64,000 nt of DNA, taken from Algoriphagus limi. Its GTDB lineage: Bacteria > Bacteroidota > Bacteroidia > Cytophagales > Cyclobacteriaceae. Below the pieces are notes generated by a model. The model did not search any database. It saw only the letters and a program-made list of their open reading frames with translations, and was not told where the DNA came from. Positions 51,458 to 55,779 of the stretch are shown piece after piece. Made by a program: the position numbers and the translations under genes. Each line of letters begins with the position of its first letter. Position 1 is the first letter of the stretch. Location: positions 124,001-188,000 of the forward strand of contig NZ_JANWGH010000002.1 of NCBI RefSeq assembly GCF_024919275.1, written 5' to 3'.

Positions 51458-52192
51458 TTATTTAAAAGGCTCTCCAGTCGCAGCATACCAAATTCCTCCA
51501 TACAAATGCTTCAAGAAATCAGGATCTTCATAAGCAGACTCCACATGTCCTAATGCTGTGTAGAACACTCTTCCTCCATCAAATTCATGATACCAAGCCA
51601 TAGGATGCTTTTCACCCATTGGCTTTGCAGGTGAATAGGTGGATTCGTCAGCATTGACCAGGACTTTAATGTTTGGATTGATATCTCTGAATTCATACAA
51701 TTCATCTGTCCAAAGCCAGTTTTTAGGGAGATGCCAAGTTGATGGATGATCTGAATCTACTACTTCCAATCGAAGGGTTTGCTGCCTTGGATGGGCCAAG
51801 AAATAAGCTCCCATCATTTGATTATACCATGGCCACTGGTACTCCGTATCTGTAGCGGCGTGGACACCAACCACCCCTTTTCCACTTCGGACAAATCGCT
51901 GAAAAGCGGCTTTTTGTTCATCATTGAAAATCGTTCCTGTGGTGCTCAGCAGGATGATCACATCAAACTTCTCTAAATTCTCATCGGTGAAATAGGCAGC
52001 GTCTTCCGTTGCGTGAACAGAAAAAACATTGGATCGCCCAAGGTTTTGAATCGCCACAACCCCAACCGGAACAGATTGGTGGCGAAATCCAGCAGTTTTG
52101 CTGAAAACCAAAGCTCGGAATTGTTGGGCTTCAGCAAATGAAAATCCAATAAGGAAAATTAAAATGGCAAGGATTGAAAATCTGATTTTCAT
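51458..52192 (-). CDS. ThuA-like protein, exported
   Basis: The protein is 244 residues from the ATG at 52192, where a clean signal peptide begins (MKIRFSILAILIFLIGFSFAEAQ). Nine extra in-frame codons upstream would spoil it. The body is ThuA (class I glutamine amidotransferase-like fold): RALVFSKTAGFRHQSVPVG near residue 27, VIILLSTTGTIFNDEQKAAF near 75, GVVGVHAATDTEYQWPWYNQMMG-type region near 105, and GGRVFYTALGHVESAYEDP near 212. ThuA proteins are tied to trehalose/sugar use in rhizobia and are common in Bacteroidota secretomes. The reaction here is unknown. It is monocistronic. Confidence 0.9.
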   Translation of the reverse strand: MKIRFSILAILIFLIGFSFAEAQQFRALVFSKTAGFRHQSVPVGVVAIQNLGRSNVFSVHATEDAAYFTDENLEKFDVIILLSTTGTIFNDEQKAAFQRFVRSGKGVVGVHAATDTEYQWPWYNQMMGAYFLAHPRQQTLRLEVVDSDHPSTWHLPKNWLWTDELYEFRDINPNIKVLVNADESTYSPAKPMGEKHPMAWYHEFDGGRVFYTALGHVESAYEDPDFLKHLYGGIWYAATGEPFK

Positions 52193-52274
52193 AGGTTTTT
52201 TGGGTTTGATTTTTCCCAAAATACAAAATCAACAATTCAATTCAGCGAAATTTTGACAATTGGCAAAAAGGCAA

Positions 52275-53369
52275 TTATTGGTCAAACCACCAATGCGGAG
52301 TTTGTGAAGTGCTGTTCGGAAATTCACTGCATCGAAGGCAGGTTCGAGGATATTTATCCAATGGCCTGGCAGGATCATAAGTGCAGACTTCCGGAATAAA
52401 AAACGGAACATCAGCCCGTGTAGTGTAAATCCGTTTTTGTGAAACACGAACCACCTCAAAGTATCCAAGAACGACCTCATCTGGATTTGAAGCATTATAT
52501 ACATTCCCTCGAACCGGTGCAGGTGGAGTGTCAAATACGGATCCAGAATTATTCACCAATTCTCGAATTCTTCTCCAATAATCATGGGAACCACGGCTAG
52601 TGCTAACTTGGCGTACATTGAAATAATGCCTGCTTAAGAATGATTCATCAACGATCCGTTCAGCGACAATCTGAGAACCTCCTTGTCCTGAAGCAGGAGC
52701 ATTTTCTCCGTTGAATAGCGTAATTCTCTCAGGATCCGGAAAACCAAAAACATAGCAATCCGGTGGTGCCTTGTTGAAAGGGTTGGGGAAAAAGGTCAAA
52801 TTCCAATAATAAGCCTCATCTACATCCCAACGAAGAAAATACGGAAAGTCGACAGCCGGCAATTGTACATCCGAAACTATGGAAATAAAGGCGGTCTCTG
52901 GAGCTCCTTTAAAATTGCCTCTTGAGAAGGTATATCCCAACTCATCTTCTCCTACAACTTGAGGCATTTGTTCGGGTTCGGATCGATATACCCTCCCCTC
53001 TATAAAAATTTCCACAAAATAGGGGACATCTTCTCTGATCTCTACATTCCTTGGAAGCATATACTTCCCGGGTTCAATTTGATTTAGAGAAAAGCGCTGA
53101 TTATCTGAATTGACTACAAAAACCTGTGCAGTAGTAACAGGTCTAGGCAGGTCATTCAAGACCAAATATTGCCCAGCAAATAAGGGCTCCCGATCCGCTG
53201 AGGTGGTTTCTGAAAGAAAGACAAACTTATCTTCATTCAGATTGCTCAATTGACCATAGACAATCAGTTTTTCCACACCTCGATCCAGAGGGAAACTGAT
53301 TTGATCCACACAGGAGTTGAATACTAGAAAAATCAAAGCCAGAATCGAAAAACGTCTCCAATTATTCAT
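52275..53369 (-). CDS. DUF4249 lipoprotein, partner of the TonB-dependent receptor
   Basis: The protein is 364 residues from the ATG at 53369, beginning a lipoprotein signal with lipobox Cys at 20 (LVFNSC). Eight upstream in-frame codons are ignored because a perfect Shine-Dalgarno sits before this ATG. The sequence fits DUF4249: KLIVYGQLSN, TTAQVFVVNSDNQRFSL and a central WDVDEAYYWN region, with a Cys-containing C-terminal part (DCYVFG, EVCTYDPARPLDKYPRTCLRC). DUF4249 lipoproteins are usually encoded next to a TonB receptor, as here, and are thought to act with it at the cell surface. The ligand is unknown. It overlaps the receptor gene by eight bases. Confidence 0.85.
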   Translation of the reverse strand: MNNWRRFSILALIFLVFNSCVDQISFPLDRGVEKLIVYGQLSNLNEDKFVFLSETTSADREPLFAGQYLVLNDLPRPVTTAQVFVVNSDNQRFSLNQIEPGKYMLPRNVEIREDVPYFVEIFIEGRVYRSEPEQMPQVVGEDELGYTFSRGNFKGAPETAFISIVSDVQLPAVDFPYFLRWDVDEAYYWNLTFFPNPFNKAPPDCYVFGFPDPERITLFNGENAPASGQGGSQIVAERIVDESFLSRHYFNVRQVSTSRGSHDYWRRIRELVNNSGSVFDTPPAPVRGNVYNASNPDEVVLGYFEVVRVSQKRIYTTRADVPFFIPEVCTYDPARPLDKYPRTCLRCSEFPNSTSQTPHWWFDQ

Positions 53370-55779
53370 CTTCACCTCCTCCGAATTGAACACTATAGGT
53401 AATAGAAGGAAAAATCGATCCCAATACCGCCAAGCGATATGGCCTCAATTGACGACTGTCTCCATCTTTTTGCCAAAAAACAGAATAGGCATTTCTCCTC
53501 CCTAGTAAATTGTAAATACTAAAATTCAAGCTATCTCCTTTTTTCGAAAAGACTTTTTCCAGAGTATAGGAAACATCTACTCGGAAATAATCTGGTATTC
53601 GATATTGATTCCTATCGCTGTACTCAGGGATTATCAATGAATTAATTACATAGCTGGCGTTCACAGCACTTACAGGCCGTCCTGTAGCATAATTGATACT
53701 GAGATTAAACAAACCTCTGGGATACATCTTTCGGCTAAAAATAAAATTCACCTCATGAGGCTTGTCATAATTACTCGGAAACCATTCTCCCCGGTTAATT
53801 TGGGTTTCTTCAAACTGCCCAGAACTTCTAAAAAACGAGCGAGAATAGGTATAAGCCACCCATCCGGTCACGATTCCTAGATTTTTTTTAATTAAAAACT
53901 CCATCCCGAATGCTTTCCCTTCTCCCAATACAATCTCTGTCTCTAAATGAGGGTTCAGGAAAATCTGAGCAAAATCTCGGTATTCGACTTGATTTTGGGT
54001 AGTTCTATAAAAGCCATCGACTGAAAACTCCCATTTGTTGTCTTTGCTGTTTCTGAAAATTCCCAAGGAAAAATTGTCTGACTGCTGAGGAGGAATGTAG
54101 CGCGTACTGAGTTGCCAAAGATCAATCGGAGACGGCCCAAAAGTATTACTCACCGACTGAATGTATTGGTATAATCGAGCATAACTTCCCTTTACCGATG
54201 TATTTTCAGCCAAATTATGCCTAATGGACAATCGAGGTTCGAAACCTGAATAGCTTTGAATAACCCCCTTTCCAAACACTTCTTCACCCGTTATTCTATC
54301 TTCCGATATCGGACCAATTTCATTGTATTGGTACACGGTGTCGGGTCCCAATTGATTGTAGAAGGAATATCTCAATCCGGCGACGAGACCTGTTTTTTCA
54401 CTTATATCCAATTCCAAACTTGAAAAAGCACCCAACTCAAGTCCTTGTTCTTTTCCTACTTTTTCAGGGCTGATATTGGATTCTGAGGAAAATGGGTTCA
54501 GTTCTTCGTCCTTACTGGAATAGGCGACACCTTCCAATCCTGTACTGATCGCTAATTTTTCATTTGCCCAAGTCAAAGTCACTTTGCCTTGCTGATAGCG
54601 CATTCCATTCCGAACCTCGGCAGCATCAAGTCCTTCCGGATCAAAAAACGCATTAGAAAAATCTCCGTCTGCTAAAAGGGCTCGAATGGATAGATTTTCA
54701 CCCAAAACCCCTCGATAATTAATACTGCTTACCCGATTGGACCAATCATAGCCAAATTCATTGGAAAACTTAAAGTAATCCCCAGTTAGCAAGGTCTTGG
54801 CTTCAATATCATGTCCGGGTGAAATATTCCAAGACAGACCAAGATATCCGTCGTAGAAATTCAGTTTGGAATTTTGAATATCAAAATCGCGAGCTTGTCC
54901 AAGCAACCAATTGGCATTCGAAATCCGCCCACCAAAAATCAGACTTGCCTTATCTTTTTTGAGAGGGCCTTCGAGAACCAATTTCCCGTTTGAAGTGCCT
55001 AACCCTACTTGCCCTTGCCAGTTTTCATCTGATCCAGGCCTCATTTGAATATTCAAAGCGGAGCCTGCACGACCTCCAAAAGTTGCAGGCAAATTTCCCT
55101 TGTAAAGCGTGAAAGTCTCTGTCACATCCGTATTAAAGGCCGAAAGGAAACCAAGTGCATGATTGGAACTTAAAACAATTGCTTCGTCCATTAAAAGTAA
55201 GTTTTGATCGGTTTTTGCACCTCTGACATTGATTCCTGAAGTTCCCTCCCCTACCGAACTAACTCCGGGTAATAGTTGTAAACCTTTAAAAATATCAGCC
55301 TCTCCCAAAAAGGCCGGGATGGCTTGCAATTCACGGGTAGTGAGTTTAGTAATTCCAGTTATCGGATTCCGAACATTCCTATCCGGTTCATCCGATAATA
55401 CCACAACACCTTCCAGTTCATAGTTTTTGTCTACCATTTGAAGGTTTACTACTCCATTTTCAAACAAGGTGACTTCCGTAAAAACAGGAACCTTAGACAA
55501 ATGTCTAAAAGTCACCCGGTGAAGACCTGGAGTCAAATTGACTAAATAAGTCCCGAATCGATCGGTATTCGTTCCGGTGTAAAATCCATCGATATGTAAA
55601 CCCACACCCTCTATAGGCTCTCCTGAATCTTGATCTAGAATTTTACCCGTCAAAATATAAGTAGCCGCATGTGGCCCTTTGGAGTCACCAAAATTAAACC
55701 TCAAAGAATCGGGAATAGCTTGGGCAAAGGATAAAGAGGATAGCAGAAAAAAAAGAATGAAAAATAAAGGAAATCTCAT
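53362..55779 (-). CDS. TonB-dependent receptor with carboxypeptidase-like N-domain
   Basis: This 805-residue outer-membrane protein has a signal peptide (~1-19). A CarboxypepD_reg-like domain lies at ~40-120 (TGKILDQDSGEPIEGVGLHI), and the plug at ~135-250 (LQLLPGVSSVGEGTSGINVRGAKTD-type region, FGGRAGSALNIQMRPG). The barrel has strands ending ...ITYSVQF followed by a GGGEDE tail. The length is typical of the short receptors paired with DUF4249 proteins, which belong to a non-SusC branch. It imports an unidentified ligand using TonB. The last codons double as the ribosome-binding site of the DUF4249 gene. The divergent neighbour is a small lipoprotein gene. Confidence 0.93.
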   Translation of the reverse strand: MRFPLFFILFFLLSSLSFAQAIPDSLRFNFGDSKGPHAATYILTGKILDQDSGEPIEGVGLHIDGFYTGTNTDRFGTYLVNLTPGLHRVTFRHLSKVPVFTEVTLFENGVVNLQMVDKNYELEGVVVLSDEPDRNVRNPITGITKLTTRELQAIPAFLGEADIFKGLQLLPGVSSVGEGTSGINVRGAKTDQNLLLMDEAIVLSSNHALGFLSAFNTDVTETFTLYKGNLPATFGGRAGSALNIQMRPGSDENWQGQVGLGTSNGKLVLEGPLKKDKASLIFGGRISNANWLLGQARDFDIQNSKLNFYDGYLGLSWNISPGHDIEAKTLLTGDYFKFSNEFGYDWSNRVSSINYRGVLGENLSIRALLADGDFSNAFFDPEGLDAAEVRNGMRYQQGKVTLTWANEKLAISTGLEGVAYSSKDEELNPFSSESNISPEKVGKEQGLELGAFSSLELDISEKTGLVAGLRYSFYNQLGPDTVYQYNEIGPISEDRITGEEVFGKGVIQSYSGFEPRLSIRHNLAENTSVKGSYARLYQYIQSVSNTFGPSPIDLWQLSTRYIPPQQSDNFSLGIFRNSKDNKWEFSVDGFYRTTQNQVEYRDFAQIFLNPHLETEIVLGEGKAFGMEFLIKKNLGIVTGWVAYTYSRSFFRSSGQFEETQINRGEWFPSNYDKPHEVNFIFSRKMYPRGLFNLSINYATGRPVSAVNASYVINSLIIPEYSDRNQYRIPDYFRVDVSYTLEKVFSKKGDSLNFSIYNLLGRRNAYSVFWQKDGDSRQLRPYRLAVLGSIFPSITYSVQFGGGEDE
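53370..53382 (-). promoter_or_regulatory. Strong Shine-Dalgarno of the DUF4249 gene, inside the receptor's last codons
   Basis: The minus strand reads GGAGGAGGTGAAG then ATG: AGGAGG with a 5-base spacer. Good SD sites are rare in this window, and this one is written in the codons for the GGGE part of the receptor's C-terminal tail. It fixes the DUF4249 start and implies coupled translation. Confidence 0.85.

Follow-up and report, generated by a model that had tools for sequence, protein, structure and literature searches.

Why does an outer-membrane receptor of the bacterium Algoriphagus limi run on for six residues beyond the end of its barrel, and why do the codons for these residues read like a Shine-Dalgarno (SD) sequence placed just before the next gene? 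The junction lies in a stretch of 64,000 nucleotides (nt) of A. limi DNA (contig NZ_JANWGH010000002.1, positions 124,001 to 188,000), hereafter the window, where a gene for a TonB-dependent receptor is followed in the same orientation by a gene for a DUF4249 lipoprotein. Read directly, the receptor gene ends AGT GTT CAA TTC GGA GGA GGT GAA GAT GAA TAA (...SVQFGGGEDE, stop), confirming a preliminary description in which the barrel ended in SVQF and was extended by GGGEDE on the codons GGA-GGA-GGT-GAA. The DUF4249 start, ATGAATAATTGG, begins within the receptor codons GAT GAA TAA. The same description placed an SD sequence five bases before this ATG. That distance holds for AGGAGG, and it does not hold for the longer stretch AGGAGGTGA, which ends two bases before the ATG and occurs exactly once in the window.

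No 16S gene was found in the A. limi assembly, and the 16S tail was taken from relatives. In a genus mate it ends GGAACACCTCCTTTCT (the pattern was matched in one of nine genomes), and the tail of an order mate is the same. The sequence AGGAGGTG is complementary to the genus mate's tail over eight bases, and the last A of AGGAGGTGA is unpaired. With AGGAGG 5 nt before the ATG and a predicted pairing energy of -16.4 kcal/mol, the element has the distance and the complementarity of a putative intragenic site. We consider it fairly probable that this is a conserved intragenic SD sequence in the last receptor codons, which raises the translation of DUF4249, most likely by termination-reinitiation, and that the receptor tail is its by-product.

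Conservation of the junction in the genus

A search of 72 genomes of the genus returned 38 DUF4249 orthologues (48-100% identity), and a receptor search added one more (L136, genome G006). The resulting 39 orthologous receptors stand at the top of the receptor matches listed; counts of energy and spacing cover the 38 other than L136. Seventeen further loci (L006-L022, Algoriphagus / Cyclobacteriaceae) partly duplicate these genomes and were kept out of the 39; all of them retain the tail and the overlap.

The tail extension (4-6 residues) and the overlapping DUF4249 gene were present in all 39 receptors. The two genes are co-oriented, and stop and start overlap by 8 nt in 37 cases and by 4 nt in two. 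GGAGG was found in 37 of the 39, the exceptions being L106 and L113; the latter reads GGGGGAGATGG (-9.3 kcal/mol). Predicted pairing is at least as strong as -9 kcal/mol in all but one of the 38 orthologues, with a median of -15.1. Tails of six residues (19 of 38), five (17) and four (2) all occur, and despite this variation the distance from the end of GGAGG to the ATG is exactly 5 nt in 32 of the 38. Codons appear to have been gained and lost in frame while the distance from site to start stayed. In L116 and L119, which overlap by 4 nt and not 8, GGAGG is retained at 6 nt from the ATG. Because these two members are nested among 8-nt ones on the tree, the register of the overlap changed and the site stayed.

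This constancy bears on the idea that GGAGGAGGT is an elongation signal, slowing ribosomes at the receptor end as an aid to secretion or assembly, next to a start codon that is there incidentally. The stretch does sit within the receptor reading frame, but the distance from site to ATG is constant while the length of the tail changes, and sister receptors have no such stretch. We regard such a signal as very unlikely.

The position of the lipobox agrees with the overlapping ATG as the start of DUF4249 in most orthologues, its Cys lying 18-22 residues from that ATG in 34 of 39. An earlier DUF4249 start was ruled out in L011, L012 and L021 by a stop codon at the ATG or at most 9 nt upstream. A hairpin that would sequester the site was also considered and rejected: the SD core has a pairing probability of 0.69, compared with 0.75 in synonymous controls, and lies above its control in 14 of 39 orthologues. 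Since pairing of the core does not exceed the controls, no conserved structure was seen.

Selection on the tail codons and distribution of the site

Synonymous sites were compared in 18 receptors (that of the window and those of the 17 loci) and again in the 39, which are more diverse. Among 167 fourfold columns in the 18 receptors (conserved Gly, Ala, Pro, Thr and Val), five hold one third base at 90% or more and three at 94% or more; all three are tail glycines. Of the 39 receptors, 36 (0.92) use GGA for the first tail glycine; the next best of 80 columns reaches 0.69 and the mean share of the top base is 0.45. Since the strongest third-base conservation falls on tail glycines, selection acts on the nucleotides and not on the peptide alone. 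Together with the nearly fixed spacing to the ATG, this bears out the earlier suggestion that a signal for translation seems to be written into the tail.

Selection on the protein would offer another explanation, in which a Gly-Gly acidic tail is useful to the receptor, for barrel assembly or for contact with the lipoprotein, and its likeness to an SD sequence is accidental. Gly-Gly is indeed invariant in 18 of 18 receptors and retained in 38 of 39, and the last tail residues are mostly D, N or E. Arguing the other way are the tail-glycine third bases, the most conserved fourfold sites of the 18 receptors, the first of them also in the 39. Moreover, the later tail residues vary (A, D, E, G, H, K, N, Q, S, V), and the end of the tail, NAT GA[AGCT] TA[AG], is what the start and the overlapping stop spell in the receptor frame, after a site spelled by GGA GGA GGT or GGA GGT. 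An advantage at the protein level seems to us an unlikely cause of the pattern. We give even less credit to an inherited relic, of single origin and persisting by descent without present function. The restriction to a single orthogroup, with one loss (L106) and a weakened branch (L103, L109 and L113), is compatible with a relic; however, other synonymous sites are far more variable, as the mean of 0.45 indicates, and the site was kept through in-frame insertions and deletions and through the change of register.

Outside this orthogroup the picture is different. The three other DUF4249 genes of the A. limi genome, inspected by eye, have no site and start at a TGATG that directly follows an upstream frame whose last residue is Phe. 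The sister receptors of the genus, eleven in number, have F or FGK as their last residues and join the next gene by an ATGA overlap or a gap of 2 nt; site and GG tail are absent from them, and seven of their DUF4249 starts give -4.9 to -5.3 kcal/mol. The site was rejected as a general feature of DUF4249 genes, as none of 54 starts from other genera, chosen automatically and sometimes doubtful, reaches -9 kcal/mol (median -2.8). These came from 55 loci, of which L170 gave no start and several have no receptor directly upstream.

Overlaps of 1 or 4 nt without a tail occur in sister and in distant receptor-DUF4249 pairs; thus, the overlap came first and the site was a later addition. The overlap appears to be widespread, and the GG tail and the site appear to have been added in one lineage, corresponding to one orthogroup among the receptors sampled. 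The tie between tail and overlap that had been put forward therefore stands in one direction, since the GG tail and its site occur in one orthogroup where the partner overlaps in 39 of 39; it needs qualifying in the other, since overlaps exist elsewhere without a tail. A receptor with the same tail and no overlapping gene was looked for among the 39 orthologous receptors and was not found there.

Two distant loci deserve separate mention. In L145 (genome G234), read by hand, a distant receptor ends in the tail LGGYEE, with GGGAGGTTATGAGGAG, a start at -11, a predicted energy of -11.1 kcal/mol and a spacing of only 2 nt. It may be an independent gain and an exception among the other pairs; its family held one genome. 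Among homologues from other genera, L067 (G041) is the most similar (39%). It has a ten-residue tail, NGKKDEKKDQ, a longer overlap, and an A-rich stretch before the start in place of GGAGG, and is a case of a tail made by the overlap without GGAGG.

A proposed restart at the DUF4249 gene

Our model suggests that a ribosome ending the receptor at its TAA would stand 5 nt past the DUF4249 ATG. Pairing of the 16S tail with GGAGG would then hold the ribosome, or the 30S subunit, for a step back to the ATG, where translation would resume 5 nt before the stop codon. The receptor tail would arise as a by-product of spelling the site, the start and the overlapping stop; judged from the sequence, the C-terminal residues of the receptor appear to be shaped by a translation signal. 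Such coupling might serve to match the amounts of receptor and surface lipoprotein. According to a review, an SD site raised translational coupling in several studies (PMC12548453). Overlapping pairs are reported to be enriched for subunits of one complex (PMC10666635), and the receptor and its DUF4249 neighbour have been proposed to work together (PMC11003636).

To place the site in its genome, we used 645 script-predicted starts from 40 stretches of 20 kb and the window (864 kb in all); these starts are approximate, and some of those with strong sites may be errors. Energies were computed with RNA duplexfold. The DUF4249 start is second of the 645 (-16.4 kcal/mol) when the Bacteroidota 16S tail is used, and first (-18.0) with an E. 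coli-like one. Moderate sites (-6 kcal/mol or stronger) are depleted at starts, with 56 compared with 115 in the mock window. Five starts reach -13 or stronger: those of a GTPase gene, the DUF4249 gene, a PorP/SprF-like gene (-16.2, its site distant from the start), rplE and a YceD-like gene (-13.0, a GTG start). The GTPase gene (L056:6570-7220, plus strand) tops the sample with its predicted site GGAGGGTGGTGTCTATG, at -16.7. The rplE gene (L058:10797-11357, plus strand) has the same layout in the same genome, with an 8-nt overlap with the preceding gene, which we take from its position to be rplX, and GGGGAGGTGATCAATG at -15.8. The presence of a site as a common feature of overlapping genes in this genome was rejected: GGAGG lies in the SD window of 3 of the 75 overlapping starts in the sample, and of none of the 75 in the mock.

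Several observations weigh against our model. Sites at -13 or stronger are as common in mock windows as at starts (5 of 645 each), and GGAGG falls in the SD window of 6 of 645 starts and of 5 of 645 mock windows. Because strong sites are equal in both, the rank alone does not exclude chance; it is the comparison between species that does. Within the orthogroup, L106 (G190) has lost the site (GHADE, TTTGGACATGCAGATG, -3.7 kcal/mol) while retaining tail and overlap, and pairing is weaker in L103, L109 and L113 (-9.3 to -9.6 kcal/mol), so the site is not indispensable. The second tail glycine is unexceptional in the 39-receptor alignment (GGA 23, GGT 11, GGG 3, GGC 1), because tails of five and six residues share that column. 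As the 39 share one ancestor, the tail and its partner count as one evolutionary event. Five orthologues (L104, L105, L107, L108 and L111) carry an open, in-frame insert of about 14-45 residues between ATG and lipobox, and have ATG, GTG or TTG codons 17-26 residues before the Cys, none with a strong site (-2.2 to -7.5); in these five DUF4249 may start at such a codon instead. The inserts of L105 and L108 are repeat-like, for example SSWQFADSSLQ. Finally, the 16S tail of Bacteroidota ribosomes is reported to lie hidden in a pocket formed by bS21, bS18 and bS6 (PMC9976891), and the phylum is reported to seem not to use the SD motif even for reinitiation (Huber et al. 2019, PMC6728339). The bS21 of A. 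limi retains Tyr54 (position counted by hand), a residue mutated in PMC9976891.

That the expression of the two genes is tied together, as first suggested, is plausible and unproven, since the anti-SD sequence is normally sequestered in Bacteroidota (PMC9976891). The 16S tail might be free after termination, a fraction of ribosomes poor in bS21 might act, or the long pairing might extract the tail, and the sequence cannot choose among these three ways of freeing it.

The second of these leads to a further explanation, that of specialised ribosomes: the DUF4249 start, like that of rpsU, would be read best without bS21, when the anti-SD sequence is free, and the lipoprotein would be made in proportion to that subpopulation. 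The rpsU gene of the same genome (L005:1492-1686, plus strand), fetched separately, has AAAGGGGGTGTACACATATG with -20.8 kcal/mol, compared with -16.4 at DUF4249, and fits the reported class of rpsU autoregulation. The DUF4249 start in the window and those of 27 of the 38 orthologues lie at or below -13, the rpsU range of PMC9976891, although that study used another program for its energies. A reporter with AGGAGGU is described there as giving more than twofold more protein in a strain with a C-terminal deletion of bS21. On the other side, 11 of the 38 orthologues are weaker than -13, and the range of -16.4 to -9.3 across 37 of the 38 argues mildly against strict rpsU-type control. No reason linking a DUF4249 lipoprotein to bS21 is known, and the overlap with the receptor, kept throughout, points to coupling. 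We think it unlikely that specialised ribosomes account for the site. Equally doubtful is the broader proposal of a cell-surface gene under an SD sequence of the rpsU class, in which the supply of the partner lipoprotein would respond to ribosomes lacking bS21 and the receptor would have been lengthened to carry the signal. If true, specialised ribosomes without bS21 would have a target outside the ribosome.

Gene context and known systems

Features at and next to the junction (positions in the window).
Feature	Position	Strand	Details
TonB-dependent receptor gene	53362..55779	-	805 amino acids; barrel end ITYSVQF, then GGGEDE
Receptor tail codons	53362..53382	-	GGA GGA GGT GAA GAT GAA TAA (GGGEDE, stop)
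Candidate SD stretch	53372..53380	-	AGGAGGTGA; AGGAGG at 53375-53380
Stop/start overlap	53362..53369	-	8 nt, ATGAATAA; receptor TAA inside DUF4249 start
DUF4249 lipoprotein gene	52275..53369	-	364 amino acids; lipobox Cys is residue 20
ThuA-domain gene	51458..52219	-	PF06283; directly 3' of the DUF4249 gene

Both genes of the pair were assigned from their domains. The receptor carries TonB_dep_Rec_b-barrel, Plug and CarbopepD_reg_2 domains, scoring 27.8 bits for Plug (PF07715, cut-off 23.9) and 73.9 bits for PF00593 (cut-off 27); the downstream product is a DUF4249 protein (PF14054, 70.2 bits, Pfam cut-off 28.5), and that of A. kandeliae is 95% identical to it. The structure model of the receptor was unusable (mean predicted local distance difference test score, pLDDT, 49.1; residues 699-805 below 50). 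The DUF4249 model was moderate (mean pLDDT 74.8), and Foldseek returned weak antibody-like matches only (template modelling score about 0.2). A sequence search of the PDB gave no match, with E up to 1 allowed for DUF4249 and up to 0.001 for the receptor.

Bacteroidota retain the anti-SD sequence but reportedly hardly use it beyond a few ribosomal genes. A non-ribosomal site under selection at the nucleotide level suggests that some Bacteroidota ribosomes read SD sequences, perhaps when restarting after termination. The junction, together with naturally mutated forms such as L106, could serve as a natural reporter of when the hidden 16S tail is accessible. It also calls for caution, since the C-terminus of a protein may be conserved for its RNA. 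In the open-access literature, no work combining Algoriphagus and the SD sequence was found, DUF4249 occurred in a single paper, and the titles and beginnings of abstracts contained no description of the present case.

Among known systems, the same gene order and families are found in the receptor/DUF4249 operon BT2172-BT2173 (PMC11003636), an association that the same paper reports across dozens of genera. Unlike pairs of that type, ours has a GG tail and a site, found in one orthogroup of the genus, with L145 as a possible exception. Genes with strong SD sequences in Bacteroidota are reported to be rpsU, rpsR and some other ribosomal genes including rplE (McNutt et al. 2023, PMC9976891). The DUF4249 gene resembles these in its extended predicted 16S pairing in a genome poor in such sites, but it encodes a lipoprotein and not a ribosomal protein, and the bS21/bS18 autoregulation described for them is inapplicable. 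There is a likeness, too, with intragenic SD sites at overlapping pairs (PMC6728339, PMC12548453), which are also embedded near the 3' end of the first gene, at a short stop/start overlap between co-oriented genes; as in those pairs, the two products probably act together. In contrast to the systems of PMC6728339, the host here belongs to the Bacteroidota, the predicted pairing is strong, and an extension of the upstream protein carries the site. The arrangement is thus of a known kind, and its host phylum has been described as seeming to make no use of it (PMC6728339).

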